A stretch of DNA of 20,251 nt from a virus: the IMG/VR virus record IMGVR_UViG_3300044482_000039, positions 1-20,251 of that record; one strand, written 5' to 3'. Under the pieces are notes generated by a model, which saw nothing but the letters and a program-made list of their open reading frames with translations, had not been told where the DNA came from and did no database searches. The translations under genes and the position numbers were made by a program. Positions 9,808 to 17,385 of the stretch are shown piece after piece (the stretch's first letter is position 1; the number at the start of each line of letters is the position of its first letter).

Positions 9808-9870
9808 TTGTTTCTCCTGTATAGGAAGAGTCTGTCTATTTCTGTTTGCATAGAGTCTGCCTAACTCGTG

Positions 9871-10131
9871 TTATGGCTCAATAGGAATGTGAGTCCACCT
9901 GTCTGGGTCTCTGTAGTTATTATCCACATCAACACAAGCAGTCCCTCCGTATCTATCGCATTTAATATGTATAACTCTAAACACGAATGGCCTATGCTGG
10001 CCCTTCCTTCCAATTACCCACACTCCGGCAGGAGGAAGTCCGTCTTCCTTTTTAGTCCAATTAGCCATAACAAAGCGCTCGTGCCGACCTGCTGCGTCGG
10101 CGTCTGATTTAATTGCGGTGGTTTCGGTCAT
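9871..10131 (-). CDS. Cassette gene A: DUF551-like protein with attC-encoded N-terminus
   Basis: From ATG at 10131 the product is 86 aa. Residues 1-21 (MTETTAIKSDADAAGRHERF) are encoded inside the attC site. The cassette-encoded part begins at the in-frame ATG at 10068, within R', and reads MANWTKKEDGLPPAGVWVIG. It ends DRWTHIPIEP, resembling the W..LPP.GV.V......W.PLP pattern of DUF551-type phage proteins. ATG at 10137 is also possible. However, GGAG is 9 nt from 10131, and the homologous attC at 15954-16061 keeps only the 10131-equivalent start. Both long and short products may be made. The TAA lies in the R'' box. Function unknown. Confidence 0.65.
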   Translation of the reverse strand: MTETTAIKSDADAAGRHERFVMANWTKKEDGLPPAGVWVIGRKGQHRPFVFRVIHIKCDRYGGTACVDVDNNYRDPDRWTHIPIEP

Positions 10132-10185
10132 CGTCATTGTCTCCAGTTGTTTCGGGCCGCAGGCAGCACAGCTTTGTAGTTATTC
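10065..10185 (-). mobile_element. attC recombination site (minus orientation)
   Basis: Minus-strand elements in order: R'' GAATAAC (10185-10179); 6-nt spacer; L'' GCTGTGC (10172-10166); variable region; L' GCACGAGC (10084-10077); 5-nt spacer; R' GTTATGG (10071-10065). L'' and L' pair over 7 bp with exactly one extra-helical base in L'. ATAAC pairs with GTTAT. Total 121 bp. These are the diagnostic parts of integron attC sites. About 89 of 108 bases match the + strand site at 15954-16061 (hand count). Confidence 0.7.
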
Positions 10186-10186
10186 G

Positions 10187-12244: not shown

Positions 12245-12979
12245 ATGCACTACTACCAATTTAACATAGCAGATTATCGAAAGGATACGGCCCACCTGTC
12301 ACCGATTGAGCATTACATATATCGGCAGCTGATGGATAGCTATTACCTAGATGAGAAGGCAATACCGAAAGAAACCCAGTCGGTTATGCGGCGGTTATGC
12401 ATCGGTTCTGATGGTTTAGAAATGCTTAATAATGTACTAGTTGATTTCTTCTTTTTAGTTGGTGATGAGTGGCATCATAAGCGGATAGATGCTGAAATTA
12501 ATTCATACCATGAAAAGGCTGCAACTAATAAAGAAAATGGCAAAAAGGGAGGCAGGCCAAGAAATCAACAACTTAGCGATGCTAATAAACCGAAAATAAC
12601 CCAGCCGGTTAATTCCGCTAACCAAAACGAAAGCGAAACGAAGCCTAACCAAGAACCAAAGAACCAAGAACCAAGGAACCAAAGAACCAATAACAACAGT
12701 AAAACAAAACTAAACTTCGAGTCATGGCCAAATGAGCCAAGTGCTGACATTCTTTCAGACTGGAAGAAGGTGAGACAGAGCAAGAAAGCCCCACTAACGC
12801 AGACAGCTATTTCGAGAATGGCAAAGGAGATAGTTTTAGCTCATGCAAGCGGGTTTACTGTTGACGACTGCATTGGTCAAGCAGTGGAAAGGGGGTGGAC
12901 AGGATTCAAGGCCGAATGGATGCTGAATTGCAACGGGGTAGAAAAACAACAGCCATCGAATTACAAGGATCTGAACTAA
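12245..12979 (+). CDS. YdaU-like (DUF1376) replication protein
   Basis: A 244-residue protein beginning MHYYQFNIADYRKDTAHLSP with the DUF1376 pattern: an N-terminal IADY..DTAHLS..E...Y..LMD.YY motif and a winged-helix-like first 85 residues, then KKGGRPR. A low-complexity Asn/Gln/Pro/Glu linker follows (about residues 120-155). The C-terminal domain is DnaT/phage-initiator-like with the ERGWTGFKAEW motif. Such proteins pair with a DnaB-type helicase, which is the next gene and overlaps by one base (TAATG). Likely role: origin recognition or helicase loading. The Shine-Dalgarno is GCGAGG; an extensive leader hairpin lies just upstream. Confidence 0.75.
   Translation: MHYYQFNIADYRKDTAHLSPIEHYIYRQLMDSYYLDEKAIPKETQSVMRRLCIGSDGLEMLNNVLVDFFFLVGDEWHHKRIDAEINSYHEKAATNKENGKKGGRPRNQQLSDANKPKITQPVNSANQNESETKPNQEPKNQEPRNQRTNNNSKTKLNFESWPNEPSADILSDWKKVRQSKKAPLTQTAISRMAKEIVLAHASGFTVDDCIGQAVERGWTGFKAEWMLNCNGVEKQQPSNYKDLN
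12640..12705 (+). repeat. Degenerate AACCAAGAACCAA tandem repeat within replication gene
   Basis: Short AACCAA-type units repeat in the linker-coding part of the YdaU-like gene, encoding NQEPKNQEPRNQ. Copy number could vary by slippage without affecting the flanking domains. Confidence 0.6.
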
Positions 12980-15255
12980 TGAAAAACTACGATACAGAGC
13001 TAGCCCTGGTTGCTGGCCTTATGCAGGACAACGCTAGAATCATGGAAGTTGACCTGCTTGCTGAGGAATTCGCCTACGAGGAGCCGCGCAGCATATACAT
13101 TGCAATCCAGGAGCTGACGCACCAACGCATACCGGCAGATATAATCACAGTAGCTGAATACATGGACGCAAGGCACGGCGGCGCGCACTGGTTCAATCGC
13201 ATCGGCCACTATGTCGCTAACGTCACCTGTACCAATGCCAGAATCTACGCTGATTCGATCCGTGCCAGCGCCACAAAGCGCAGAGCGGTAGAGATAGCCC
13301 AAGCTCTGCTAGAGGGGGCAAATGATGGCCAACCGGCTGTAGATGTGGCAATCGGCGCACTTATGGAGATAGGAAGAAGCACACGCAAATACGAGTACAC
13401 GATAAAAGAGACGCTAAGGGCCGCTGTAGACGATATAGAGCGATCAATGGAGCTGGGGGATATGCCAGGGCTACCAAGCGGAATCGAAGCATTAGACGGC
13501 CTTACAGGCGGCTTCCACGATACTGACTTTATTGTGATAGGGGCAAGACCGGCGATGGGTAAGGAATTGACAATGGACTCATTAGTGCTATTATCTAACG
13601 GAAGATTTAAGCCAATGAAGGATATAGAAATGAATGATGATGTGGCGTCTGTTGATGGGAGAGCGTCTAAGGTTGTTGGTGTTTATCCGCAGGGGGTGAA
13701 GCCGGTGTATAAAATAACCTTCAGTGATGGCAGGAGTGTTGACGCTGGGCTAGACCACCAGTGGGAGGTTATGTATAGGGGGTGGAGTGATCCTCGGGTA
13801 CTGACAACCAGCCAACTGATTCACAAGTTAAAGTGCAAGAGGTACAGCAATAGGATCTATATTCCAAATCATACGGCTGACTTCGGTGAGGATGTGGATA
13901 TTAATATTGACCCGTATCTTCTCGGTGTTTTGCTTGGTGATGGAAGCTTTGCAGGGCAAGGGGTTAAGTTGACAACATCGCATAGCCATATTATTGACAA
14001 GATAAAAGCCAAGCTTATGGGGTGTTCACTGAAGTCTGCTGGAGGGATAGATTATAGAATATCCAGCAGACCAGGCTCTAAAAACAAGCTCCTTGATGAG
14101 ATAAGGAACCTTGGACTTGGTGGCGCTTTATCCCACCAAAAGTTCATACCTGCTAATTATTTATCTGCCACTAAAGAGACTCGACTTGAGATTATGAGAG
14201 GGCTAGTTGACACGGATGGAACCGTAGAAAAACATGGGTCAATGACGTACACGAGCACCAGTAAGCGGTTGGCTAGCGATTTCCAAGCGCTAGCTAGGTC
14301 ACTTGGCTCATACGCGTCTATGACATCAAGAGTCACAAAATACACTTATCTTGGCGAGAAGAAAGAAGGGAAGCGATCTTATACAGTGTGCATAAGTTGC
14401 GCGCACTATGGCGATTTTGTCACGTTGCCAAAAAAGAAAGATAGGATATTGCATGGCAAATCAAGCAGGAATCTAAATATTAAAACAATAGAATATATCG
14501 GTGACTTTGACTGTCAGTGCATATCTGTTGACCATCCGCGAAGCCTCTATATGTCAAATGATTACACGGTAACTCATAACACGGCATTTATGCTTAATTG
14601 CGCCCTTGGAGCTAACGCCTGTGTCGGAATTATGTCCACAGAGCAGGGCTATTCCCAGCTCGGTACGAGGCTGATAGCCATAGACGGAAAAGTATCAATC
14701 AGCCGGATGAGAAGAGCGCAGCAATTGGACGATTCAGATTTTGCCCGCATTACTGGATCTTCAAACCGTATGATGGACGGTGAAATCTATATCAACGACA
14801 TGCCATCACCGACGCTTGCTGATATAGCCAGGCAGGCAAGGCAGTGGAAGTTCAGGAAGAATATTAAAGCCCTGTATATAGACTACATCCAGCGGATAAA
14901 AGTTACCGGTTCAGCGCCACGCCATGAGCAGATAGGCGATATTGCTATGGGTCTAAAAGAGCTTGCGAGGGAGTTGAATATCCCAGTGATAGCATTGGCG
15001 CAAGTCAATCGTAACGTGGAGCAGAGGGCAGACAGGAGGCCAGGAATGGCAGATCTAAAGGACTCTGGCGGGATTGAGCAAGAGGCAGATATGGTTATGA
15101 CGTTGTATCGGGATGAAGTCTACAACCAGGACACGCAAGACAAGGGCATGATAGAGATACTCATTGCCAAAAATAGGCACGGAGAGACCGGCAGATTGAG
15201 AGCGGCATGGATGGGCGAGTATCTGAAAGTAGGGACGCTTGAGAATAGGTATTAA
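12979..15255 (+). CDS. Replicative DnaB-like helicase precursor containing an intein
   Basis: The start at 12979 overlaps the previous stop (TAATG) and has AAGGAT upstream; an ATG at 12895 in the same frame overlaps the preceding gene and is rejected. The precursor is 758 aa. Exteins are residues 1-195 and 535-758, giving a mature helicase of 419 aa. The N-terminal DnaB domain starts YDTELALVAGLM. The P-loop GARPAMGK (188-195) is split from its Thr535 by the intein. The C-extein has LYIDYIQRI (Walker B) and IPVIALAQVNR with RPGMADLKDSGGIEQEAD, characteristic of DnaB helicases. Helicase activity must await protein splicing, since the ATP site is interrupted. Confidence 0.9.
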   Translation: MKNYDTELALVAGLMQDNARIMEVDLLAEEFAYEEPRSIYIAIQELTHQRIPADIITVAEYMDARHGGAHWFNRIGHYVANVTCTNARIYADSIRASATKRRAVEIAQALLEGANDGQPAVDVAIGALMEIGRSTRKYEYTIKETLRAAVDDIERSMELGDMPGLPSGIEALDGLTGGFHDTDFIVIGARPAMGKELTMDSLVLLSNGRFKPMKDIEMNDDVASVDGRASKVVGVYPQGVKPVYKITFSDGRSVDAGLDHQWEVMYRGWSDPRVLTTSQLIHKLKCKRYSNRIYIPNHTADFGEDVDINIDPYLLGVLLGDGSFAGQGVKLTTSHSHIIDKIKAKLMGCSLKSAGGIDYRISSRPGSKNKLLDEIRNLGLGGALSHQKFIPANYLSATKETRLEIMRGLVDTDGTVEKHGSMTYTSTSKRLASDFQALARSLGSYASMTSRVTKYTYLGEKKEGKRSYTVCISCAHYGDFVTLPKKKDRILHGKSSRNLNIKTIEYIGDFDCQCISVDHPRSLYMSNDYTVTHNTAFMLNCALGANACVGIMSTEQGYSQLGTRLIAIDGKVSISRMRRAQQLDDSDFARITGSSNRMMDGEIYINDMPSPTLADIARQARQWKFRKNIKALYIDYIQRIKVTGSAPRHEQIGDIAMGLKELARELNIPVIALAQVNRNVEQRADRRPGMADLKDSGGIEQEADMVMTLYRDEVYNQDTQDKGMIEILIAKNRHGETGRLRAAWMGEYLKVGTLENRY
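13564..14580 (+). mobile_element. Class 3-type intein with LAGLIDADG homing endonuclease in DnaB
   Basis: 339 residues inserted between Lys and Thr of the P-loop. Residue 1 is Glu, not Cys/Ser. The class 3 triad is visible: Trp67 in DHQW (block B), Cys319 in QCISVDHP (block F) and Thr337 in TVTHN (block G), with terminal His338-Asn339 and Thr as the +1 residue. Two LAGLIDADG motifs, LLGVLLGDG (119-127) and MRGLVDTDG (211-219), both retain Asp, so an active homing endonuclease is likely. The DNA appears more AT-rich than the exteins, consistent with separate acquisition. Confidence 0.9.
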
Positions 15256-15316: not shown

Positions 15317-15403
15317 GCGTAACGCTGGAGTTAAAAGGGCGCAGCACAGCGCCGACTACAAAGCGCAAAATGTAAAGCGCTCCTTTTGAATGACTTGTTA
15401 TAA
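15317..15403 (+). mobile_element. attC site 1
   Basis: R'' GCGTAAC (15317-15323), 7-nt spacer, L'' TTAAAAGG (15331-15338), variable region with GGCGC/GCGCC hairpin, L' CCTTTTGAA (15382-15390), 6-nt spacer, R' GTTATAA (15397-15403). The L boxes form 8 bp with one extra-helical G; R boxes pair over TAAC/GTTA. 87 bp. No matching cassette start lies upstream, so this is the entry edge of the array. Confidence 0.65.
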
Positions 15404-15419
15404 CGCGAGGTGAACGAAG

Positions 15420-15620
15420 ATGAGTAACGGATTTTTACGATACAAAGGGTACTCAGGCACCGTGTGCCAAGATGACCAAGGTTGGAACGGTAAGCTGATA
15501 CGGAAGCCCAACGGTGAGGCAATGTTTGACTTATGGCTATATGAAGCCGATAACTACGAAGCCCTAAAGCCAGCATTTGCAGAGGCCGTTGATAGCTACG
15601 AAAAATCATTAGCGTTATAA
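15420..15620 (+). CDS. Cassette gene 1: HicB-like orphan antitoxin domain (66 aa)
   Basis: The ORF starts MSNGFLRYKGYSGTVCQDDQ with GAGGTGAACGAAG directly upstream, inside the cassette. The YKGYSGTV opening, GKL strand and C-terminal ALKPAFAEAVDSYEKS follow the HicB family pattern (YKGYTGSVE...L..AF.EAVDDYL), a partial RNase H-like fold. The usual C-terminal DNA-binding RHH/HTH is absent, and no HicA-like toxin gene is adjacent. Toxin-antitoxin parts are common cargo of integron cassettes. It may neutralise a host HicA toxin, which is inference. The TAA stop lies in the R'' of attC site 2. Confidence 0.55.
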   Translation: MSNGFLRYKGYSGTVCQDDQGWNGKLIRKPNGEAMFDLWLYEADNYEALKPAFAEAVDSYEKSLAL

Positions 15621-15741
15621 CTTTTGAGCTAACCGGCGATGAGCCAGCAGGAGGTGAACGATGAGCACTGAAACACCGGAACAACCAGAACCCGCAGAAT
15701 GTCGCGGCGAAGCGTCCGATTCGTTTAGCGATTTGTTATGT
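15615..15741 (+). mobile_element. attC site 2
   Basis: R'' TTATAAC (15615-15621), 6-nt spacer, L'' GCTAAC (15628-15633), L' GTTTAGC (15723-15729), 5-nt spacer, R' GTTATGT (15735-15741). L boxes pair over 6 bp with a single extra-helical T in L'. 127 bp. A perfect AGGAGGTG and ATG (15661) lie inside the site. Confidence 0.65.
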
Positions 15742-15948
15742 GGCTCTTTGGAGTTGGTGGTAGATCCTATTGATGAGGCGCTAGAAGAAATATCCGCTAT
15801 CGCTGCTGCTTGGCAGAAGAACCGAGACAGGAAGCGGCCATCTCCTATATTGCGTAGGGCATTAATACATGCAGCGCAAGAGTTGGTGGATGAGGTTCAT
15901 ATATTCCATAAACGTCAGTCTGACGAAGCCAAGGATAGAGCCGTATAA
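15661..15948 (+). CDS. Cassette gene 2 with attC-encoded N-terminus (95 aa), unknown
   Basis: The AGGAGGTGAACG Shine-Dalgarno points to ATG at 15661, which lies within attC site 2. Residues 1-25 (MSTETPEQPEPAECRGEASD and on) are attC-encoded and acidic/proline-rich, unlike the rest. The cassette-encoded part continues in frame through R' as LCGSLELVVDPIDEALEEIS, then a basic helical region (KNRDRKRPSPILRRALIHAA). An internal start (TTG or GTG near 15768) cannot be excluded. The TAA is inside the next R''. No family recognised. Confidence 0.55.
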   Translation: MSTETPEQPEPAECRGEASDSFSDLLCGSLELVVDPIDEALEEISAIAAAWQKNRDRKRPSPILRRALIHAAQELVDEVHIFHKRQSDEAKDRAV

Positions 15949-16062
15949 CGACTAGCTGTGCCGACTGCGGCCCGAAACAACTGGAGACAATTAAGATGAC
16001 CGGAACTACTGAAATTAAAGCGCCCTCCGACCTAGCAGGTCAGAACGAGCGCACTGTTATGC
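15943..16062 (+). mobile_element. attC site 3
   Basis: R'' GTATAAC (15943-15949), 5-nt spacer, L'' GCTGT (15955-15959), L' ACGAGC (16045-16050), 5-nt spacer, R' GTTATGC (16056-16062). L boxes pair over 5 bp with an extra-helical G. 120 bp. It is a diverged copy of the minus-strand site at 10065-10185. Confidence 0.65.
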
Positions 16063-16232
16063 GACCAGACGTAACTGCCACCGCTTTTGTTGAGGGTTAC
16101 CACGACGGCAGTAAAGACCCAGGATATGTAACTTCAACACAGCCAGGGAGTGTTGTTGTGCCTGACAGGTACAGCGCCAACGAAGTTGATGCAGTTAACT
16201 ATAAGTCTGGATATAGGTCTGCGATAAATTAG
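15996..16232 (+). CDS. Cassette gene 3 with attC-encoded N-terminus (78 aa), unknown
   Basis: ATG at 15996 has GGAG 9 nt upstream, both within attC site 3. Residues 1-21 (MTGTTEIKAPSDLAGQNERT and V) are attC-encoded and homologous to the N-terminus of the minus-strand cassette gene at 9871-10131. The cassette's own in-frame ATG lies in R' at 16059 (MRPDVTATAFVEGYHDGSKD), giving a 57-aa product. The cassette parts of these two genes are unrelated. Stop TAG precedes the next R'' by 1-2 nt. No family recognised. Confidence 0.55.
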   Translation: MTGTTEIKAPSDLAGQNERTVMRPDVTATAFVEGYHDGSKDPGYVTSTQPGSVVVPDRYSANEVDAVNYKSGYRSAIN

Positions 16233-16234
16233 AC

Positions 16235-16337
16235 GTATAACGACCATGCTAAGGTGCGCCATACCGCGCACCACAGAGCTTAGAATTTACCACAAAACGT
16301 GACGCGGTATGGTGTCGCCTGGAGCTACTTGTTATGT
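16235..16337 (+). mobile_element. attC site 4
   Basis: R'' GTATAAC (16235-16241), 6-nt spacer, L'' GCTAAGG (16248-16254), L' CCTGGAGC (16318-16325), 5-nt spacer, R' GTTATGT (16331-16337). An inner 10-bp stem CCATACCGCG (16259-16268) / CGCGGTATGG (16303-16312) closes a 34-nt loop. This is the clearest foldback of the set, 103 bp, with no competing ORF. Confidence 0.75.
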
Positions 16338-16549
16338 GTGACCTACATAAAAAACACATGAGTTTGATTGATGCCGTGAATAATGCTGAGAACGATCAAA
16401 TGAGATTGATCGCAGACTTAACATTGCGAGGCTGGCGAGACGGTATCGCAGACGCGGGGATCAATCTCGGAAATATGCTGATAAATGCAGACCTTGAGCA
16501 GATTGAGCGTGGTAATGATGTTGCTATGTGCTGCGGAGTATTCATTTAA
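16334..16549 (+). CDS. Cassette gene 4 (71 aa), unknown
   Basis: The ATG is part of R' (GTTATG) and reads MCDLHKKHMSLIDAVNNAEN. The only Shine-Dalgarno is GGAG at 16321-16324, which belongs to the L' box of attC site 4. The previous cassette's attC thus supplies the ribosome binding site. The protein is acidic and helical (IADLTLRGWRDGIADAGINL). TAA is adjacent to R'' CACATAAC. No family recognised. Confidence 0.55.
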   Translation: MCDLHKKHMSLIDAVNNAENDQMRLIADLTLRGWRDGIADAGINLGNMLINADLEQIERGNDVAMCCGVFI

Positions 16550-16582
16550 CACATAACAGGTGAATATACGGAATCCGTATAT
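16550..16582 (+). repeat. Terminal R''-like box plus near-perfect palindrome
   Basis: CACATAAC (16550-16557) is the exact complement of the start of cassette 4. It is followed by the palindrome ATATACGG-AAT-CCGTATAT (16564-16582). No L' or GTT-type R' follows within 130 bp, so the last attC seems truncated. The palindrome could alternatively be an operator upstream of the ERF gene; it lacks a U-run. Confidence 0.45.
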
Positions 16583-16680: not shown

Positions 16681-17385
16681 ATGAATGACTTAGTTGGAAA
16701 ACAATACGGGCAGATATCGGCGCAGACGGTTACACCGATGGACATGCTCCAAATGGCAATCCAGCAAGGTGCAGACCTGGATAAACTAGAAAAGTTGATG
16801 GATATGAAGGACAGGCACGAGGCGAACGAGGCGCGGAAAGCATATGTCCAGGCGATGAGCGCATTTCGATCTGGCTGCCCAGCAATAGCAAAGACACGCG
16901 ACGGGCATAACAACCGATACGCAGGACTTGCCGAGACTATCGAGCAGATTAAGGGCGTTCTTTCTGCTTGTGGCCTGTCTCACTCTTGGGAAATGTCGCA
17001 ACAGGGTGAATCAATCACCGTTACATGCTGTATTACTCATTCAATGGGTCATCAAGAGTGCACCTCTATGACTGCTCCGCCAGACGCTGGAGGCAGTAAA
17101 AATAAGATTCAGGCGATAGCGTCCACCGTTTCCTACCTTGAGCGGTACACCCTATTCGCAAAGCTCGGGCTAGCATCCGCTGAAATGGACGACGATGGGA
17201 ACCTTTCCGGAACTAAAGTCGAGTATATCAGCGCCGAACAGATTGCTACGCTGGAATCACTGGCAGAAGAAGTTGGAGTGAAAACGCAATCAATGTGCGC
17301 TCATTACAACTGCAGGCACATCGGTGTATTTCCGGCGAAACTGTATAACGATGCAGTCGCTAACCTTGAGGGGAGGAGAAAGTAA
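16681..17385 (+). CDS. ERF-family single-strand annealing protein
   Basis: A 234-residue recombinase that anneals complementary single strands in phage recombination. The start MNDLVGKQYGQISAQ has AGAGGTGG upstream. The ERF core spans about residues 55-180: ANEARKAYVQAMSAFRSGCP, then the hallmark RYAGLAETIEQI and later ASTVSYLERYTLFAKLGLAS, followed by DDDGN. The C-terminal tail (about 180-234) is probably a protein-interaction region. It is coupled (TAATG) to the YqaJ exonuclease gene, the usual annealase-exonuclease pair. Confidence 0.85.
   Translation: MNDLVGKQYGQISAQTVTPMDMLQMAIQQGADLDKLEKLMDMKDRHEANEARKAYVQAMSAFRSGCPAIAKTRDGHNNRYAGLAETIEQIKGVLSACGLSHSWEMSQQGESITVTCCITHSMGHQECTSMTAPPDAGGSKNKIQAIASTVSYLERYTLFAKLGLASAEMDDDGNLSGTKVEYISAEQIATLESLAEEVGVKTQSMCAHYNCRHIGVFPAKLYNDAVANLEGRRK

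Follow-up and report, generated by a model that had tools for sequence, protein, structure and literature searches.

Integron-type cassette arrays with genes opposed to attC polarity in the operons of a tailed phage

Introduction

Are the tiny genes lying between two replication and recombination genes of a phage true integron cassettes and, if so, how are they read and moved? The question is raised by a 20,251-base IMG/VR record (IMGVR_UViG_3300044482_000039), a fragment of a phage genome that we refer to in its entirety as the window. The original prediction, made from the letters alone, described four attC-like sites and their cassettes between dnaB and erf, with attC polarity following the genes, and proposed exchange with host integrons through the host IntI. 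Clusters of attC sites in phages, and a few complete phage integrons, have already been published, and the attCs of three virulent phages have proved operational (Qi et al. 2023, PMC9892861). In integrons generally, attC recombines as a folded bottom strand with crossover at G/TT, the choice of strand orienting the cassette for expression from the Pc promoter (PMC8946536).

Results

The window phage

The window has the gene content of a tailed phage, with major head protein, portal and terminase encoded on the minus strand. Those on the plus strand encode a primosomal/O-like protein, DnaB, Erf, a YqaJ-type exonuclease, SSB and NinG. Two of them flank the principal array (array 1):

12895 to 15255, plus strand: DnaB-like helicase (phrog_19, E 1.8e-77)
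16681 to 17385, plus strand: Erf-like annealing protein (phrog_155, E 1.3e-36)

The four cassettes between them do lie within a replication-recombination operon, as had been claimed, and a search with TIGR02249 found no integron integrase in the 20-kb fragment. Searches of phage records and IMG/VR (ERF, portal, blastn) found no close relative of the window phage. As a separate observation, the DnaB-like helicase (786 aa) is apparently split by an intein: helicase matches span only its C-terminal third, the stretch at about 211-565 of the protein matches profiles of unrelated phage proteins, probably via common inteins, and the segment preceding the last helicase part terminates in VTHN.

Recognition of attC sites

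A covariance model of 17 pairs, R1, was trained on 50 attCs from bacterial intI-linked arrays of gammaproteobacterial genomes, with none from the window phage, in order to avoid circularity, and was run with cmsearch on both strands with filters off. Known integron attCs score 21-63 bits with this model. In phage TJE1 it finds three sites, the published number, two TJE1 attCs having been tested with IntI1 (PMC9892861). Across a further 185 kb from other phages nothing matches at E<=1, a figure that goes with limited sensitivity, since published sites of P12002L, which is within those 185 kb, are missed.

Five sites in the window rise above background, with E-values from 6e-8 to 0.03; the next-best match has 11.5 bits and E 0.54. 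These E-values are rough, the calibration having been short.

15317 to 15403, minus strand: attC S1, 87 nt (R1 37.1 bits, E 6.9e-7)
15615 to 15741, minus strand: attC S2, 127 nt (R1 17.2 bits, E 0.026)
15943 to 16062, minus strand: attC S3, 120 nt (R1 24.2 bits, E 6.5e-4)
16235 to 16337, minus strand: attC S4, 103 nt (R1 41.8 bits, E 5.7e-8)
10065 to 10185, plus strand: attC S5, 121 nt, array 2 (R1 20.6 bits, E 4.3e-3)

The four sites originally reported are thus recovered in place, far beyond chance, by the kind of scan that the original prediction had itself proposed; a fifth site, with its cassette on the other strand (9870-10185), had been overlooked. The R'' and R' boxes of all five fit the attC pattern. 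S2 is the weakest and its stem is unusual. S5 is homologous to S3: in a DNA self-comparison, 10066-10186 (minus strand) and the S3 region share 81% identity. A search of Rfam matched no family. Array 1, with four attCs within 1.1 kb and none beside intI, is a CALIN, a cluster of at least two such sites; array 2, with one attC, does not by itself make a cluster.

Other measures were less informative. It had been noted that the first bases of each cassette are complementary to its own R'', and this is correct: cassette 1 pairs GTTATAACGC with GCGTTATAAC at 10/10 positions, and the paired runs measure 10 in cassette 2 (two wobbles), 8 in cassette 3 (one wobble) and 9 in cassette 4 (no wobble). 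Chains of this kind are weak evidence by themselves, 2 of 60 Markov shuffles likewise reaching four links, and they were dropped as an attC test, together with a home-made stem score, for their low specificity. The suggested folding of the sites was carried out as an unconstrained fold of each; most were unremarkable, and their unimpressive z-scores were set aside as evidence.

Cassette genes and array boundaries

The boundaries of the two arrays and their cassette genes are as follows:

16551 to 16557, minus strand: first G/TT box of array 1 (GTTATGT), of canonical polarity; right array boundary, 9 bp complementary to R'' of S4
9870 to 9876, plus strand: limit of array 2, a G/TT box (GTTATGG) with complementarity to R'' of S5
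15420 to 15620, plus strand: cassette ORF c1, 66 aa, HicB-like (phrog_9151, E 1.9e-4), with Shine-Dalgarno (SD) GAGGTG upstream
15661 to 15948, plus strand: cassette ORF c2, 95 aa, start inside S2, SD AGGAGG-ATG
15996 to 16232, plus strand: cassette ORF c3, 78 aa, start inside S3, SD GGAG-ATG
16334 to 16549, plus strand: cassette ORF c4, 71 aa, start at the end of S4, SD GGAG-N9-ATG
9871 to 10137, minus strand: cassette ORF c5, 88 aa, start inside S5, array 2, SD GGAG-ATG
16564 to 16582, no strand assigned: inverted repeat ATATACGGAATCCGTATAT with 9-bp arms, just outside array 1; possibly, on weak grounds, an orphan attI

At its left end, S1 presents a canonical R' (GTTACGC) abutting phage DNA downstream of dnaB. 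Array 2 is a single cassette in a leftward operon. Every cassette gene in the window is preceded by its own SD, and four of the five (c2-c5) start inside their own attC, with c1 starting just past its site. S2, for example, contains the ribosome site, start codon and leader of c2; S3 carries the ribosome site and start of c3; and an arm of S4 supplies both the GGAG and the ATG (GTTATG) of c4.

The resemblance of c1 to HicB is of modest significance, and profile searches assigned no family to c2-c5. Comparison of the window cassette proteins with all the loci fetched gave no convincing homologue, and the protein of cassette 1 had no match in 369 gammaproteobacterial genomes. Beside array 2, at 9859-9876, GCCTAACTCGTGTTATGG has an R''-like and an R'-like box with just 4 bases between them (R1 10.7 bits); it could be an attC that has collapsed or else a minimal target site.

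The same attC type in other phages

Exact pattern scans using the core of S3 and S5 found nothing; a looser pattern derived from the same two sites found G374, a 38.7-kb myovirus contig whose genes include those for tail sheath, baseplate and a phage integrase. It has six model-supported attCs near the two contig ends (five within 1-1650), all opposite to the genes, and intI was not found in it. S5 can be aligned with two of its sites, GB (131 nt, E 3e-9) and GC (86 nt, embedded gene start included). A 26-nt stretch of S2 is 92% identical to site GB, and an attC-like stretch at about 255-389 of the contig, below the model threshold, resembles S2.

A second model, built from this attC family, matched the bacterial genome G341, in which the contig concerned (C17) is a temperate phage encoding IntI. 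Its phage genes include those for an integrase, SbcC-like and SbcD-like proteins, repressor, primase, portal, protease, head and tape measure. The intI gene (TIGR02249, 458 bits) sits between the SbcC-like and SbcD-like genes and is adjoined by two reversed cassettes. Another gene of this contig, which might be taken for RecT, matches a Gp3-like family and not RecT. A further phage contig in a bacterial genome, G381:C295, has nine attCs and eight reversed genes beside a regulator and an O-like replication gene. All three phages share the attC family of the window, with embedded starts.

Gene polarity and competing explanations

On the polarity of the sites the original prediction proves to be the reverse of what is found. 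Each of the five window attCs is canonical on the strand opposite its cassette gene: array-1 sites score 17-42 bits on the minus strand and at most 11.1 bits on the plus strand with R1, and in array 2 the c5 gene is on the minus strand with S5 canonical on the plus strand. Read with this polarity, every window cassette holds a whole gene; all five have genes opposite to attC polarity and along a phage operon.

Orientation was scored across intI-linked bacterial arrays and a phage set comprising the window, G374, G381, the G341 prophage and the intI-bearing viral contigs of the clade described below. Bacterial arrays yielded 108 sense and 4 reversed confident cassettes, the phage arrays 4 sense and 30 reversed (P 1e-22). 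Since cassettes in one array are not independent, the comparison was also made by locus, giving sense-to-reversed ratios of 23:1 for bacteria and 2:12 for phages (P 4e-7). The scorer rewards SD motifs and was applied identically to both sets. Sense arrays do exist in phages (TJE1, L215 and part of L225). We also considered whether attC arms generally spell an SD and ATG on the other strand and rejected the idea, the motif, present in 9/66 phage and 5/50 bacterial sites, being not clearly commoner in phages; and of the 42 reversed cassettes no more than 16 have their start within attC, which makes the embedded start a feature of a subset.

These figures bear on the possibility that the window merely holds a fragment of a host chromosomal integron, passively captured and now an ordinary, functionless attC cluster. 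Such cases have been published for Vibrio and other phages (PMC9892861), the window has no intI, and the attC arms of S3 and S5 resemble attCs of bacterial arrays. However, the sense orientation prevails in bacterial arrays, whereas the window has five reversed cassettes out of five; it has two separate arrays, each aligned with its own phage operon; and attCs of this family, embedded starts included, turn up again in unrelated phages. Capture of this kind is accordingly improbable, if still the best of the alternatives.

Much less credible is the arrangement originally envisaged, in which site polarity runs with the genes and a host IntI exchanges cassettes between phage and host integron. 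IntI1 does accept attCs of three other phages (PMC9892861), and the complementarity of cassette ends, being symmetric, suits either polarity, but the plus-strand scores of array 1 tell against it, as does its consequence that the preceding cassette would contain the ribosome sites and leaders of c2 and c3. Exchange by a host IntI with the reversed polarity is possible. That the hairpins are phage RNA or transcription elements mimicking attC, such as weak terminators between small genes, can practically be dismissed: the minus strand of S1 does contain one terminator-like match, and weak termination has been ascribed to attCs (PMC9892861), but the attC model is specific, Rfam gives no match, the R'' and R' boxes of all five sites conform to attC, and homologous sites adjoin intI in a prophage.

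A phage clade of IntI and its attI

Reversed-gene arrays of this kind occur with an integrase of their own. A scan of IMG/VR with an IntI-specific segment found 37 viral contigs encoding IntI, a sample that favours kin of the G341 IntI used as the query. In a tree that also includes 63 IntIs from bacteria and plasmids, 17 from viruses and prophages fall into a single exclusive clade (support 99/90), sister to the class 1 type; its members are the G341:C17 enzyme and others from among the viral contigs L214-L233. In L214, L216, L221 and L225 the gene immediately upstream of the phage tyrosine integrase, and on its strand, is intI, and a recognisable attI is common to most of these phages. The inverted repeat at 16564-16582 of the window is positioned like the attI of phage integrons, with a sequence unlike that of the phage-clade attI. 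Since reversed-gene arrays of the same kind accompany this clade of 17 viral and prophage IntIs, the host IntI invoked originally is not the only possible route of exchange.

Further IntI-like proteins were encountered. A second, deep-branching viral group comprises L246, L247, L249 and L250, and in the last two most cassettes are reversed. In virus Rctr41k (KX853513, 4680-5678 and 7921-8813), a phage from a methane-oxidising enrichment, a protein resembling IntI (45% identity to IntI1) is encoded and attC matches lie on the same strand; Rctr41k does not appear in the published table of phage integrons consulted.

Natural array exchange

The original prediction also called for related phages to be compared for indels at the G/TT of R'. 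Indels of this type are present in a set of near-identical intI-bearing contigs, L226, L227/L228 and L229/L230, though these are not kin of the window phage. The contigs are 99.7-100% identical over kilobases and differ between attI and the far array end. They remain identical through attI up to AATTTAAGTT or GGTGTCGTCGAATTTAAGTT and diverge right after it; L227 and L230 rejoin from GTTAGCAGG, the last R' GTT at the far end, so that both breakpoints of this pair are G/TT points. These comparisons indicate that some phage integrons do recombine, the near-identical contigs parting immediately past the GTT of attI and coming together again at that of the last R'. In L226 the first cassette past attI, at about 130-480, appears by eye to encode a reversed QueD-like protein (7-deazaguanine pathway).

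Discussion

Comparison with known systems

The nearest published counterparts are the phage CALINs (Qi et al. 2023, PMC9892861), which likewise have attC-bounded cassettes of small unknown genes without a neighbouring intI. The window differs in its attC-embedded starts and its occupation of two operons, and its relatives encode a phage-clade IntI. The cassettes of TJE1 and PH101 are described as oriented like bacterial arrays (PMC9892861), and those of TJE1 are sense by R1, whereas those of the window and its relatives are reversed. With the sedentary chromosomal and class 1 integrons the window shares R'', L'', L' and R', extrahelical bases and G/TT, to which its relatives add IntI and a conserved attI. 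In the phages, however, genes read towards intI from the phage operon, not away from it, and the relatives' IntI belongs to a separate clade. Shewanella phage M16-3 and Vibrio phage Va_90-11-286_p16 also carry IntI with arrays, but their IntIs group with bacterial ones, outside the phage clade.

In the open-access literature, to which our search extended (preprints and subscription journals lying outside it), we found no description of reversed-gene arrays, the phage IntI clade or the natural swap. Since phage CALINs have been published and these features were not found described, the window is best filed as a CALIN with a new arrangement.

Expression, mechanism and cargo

We conclude, with a probability of roughly 0.85, that the window phage has two genuine integron-type arrays lacking intI, of the reversed-gene kind common to several phages, laid along phage operons. 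Four cassettes lie between dnaB and erf and one in a leftward operon, and each is a promoterless but complete gene with its own SD and start. The attC sites would fold as hairpins on single strands during replication, and the IntI recombining them would come from a co-resident phage, from the host or from a gene beyond the 20-kb fragment. For the window phage itself we infer such exchange rather than observe it, because neither the window nor G374 contains intI.

As the genes of phage arrays are inverted relative to the Pc rule, expression must come from phage promoters, and in the window the cassettes would be read from the phage's own. A recurring motif, approximately CTTATA-N(6-8)-ATAGAAA, stands at the heads of gene blocks (15272, 16616 and 20205 on the plus strand; 11995 and 9595 on the minus strand) and may be such a promoter. 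Its occurrence just upstream of array 1 (15272) and of erf (16616) fits this mode of expression without proving it.

The cargo is presumably a variable set of host-interaction genes. Among the cassette products of related phages are DNA methylases of the C5 and N6/N4 types, a Mom-like protein and a PAPS-reductase-domain protein, along with a DHH-type protein that falls under the curated cut-off. The methylase, Mom-like and PAPS-reductase-domain cargo points to modification against restriction, and we infer a cassette role against host defence.

Taken more broadly, the data lean towards a phage-specific integron lineage, run by temperate and other phages, with its own IntI clade, with attI at the end of an early operon by the phage integrase, and with inverted genes expressed by the phage operon instead of Pc. 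Such a lineage would constitute exchangeable banks of anti-defence genes, and the window phage would draw on the same pool.

Implications

Integrons are known as a bacterial stockpile of resistance and adaptive genes. If a phage integron lineage with inverted genes is indeed real, cassettes also move in the viral gene pool, and the accessory regions of phages could be rebuilt gene by gene through site-specific recombination. The near-identical phages that differ mainly in their arrays offer a ready test system.
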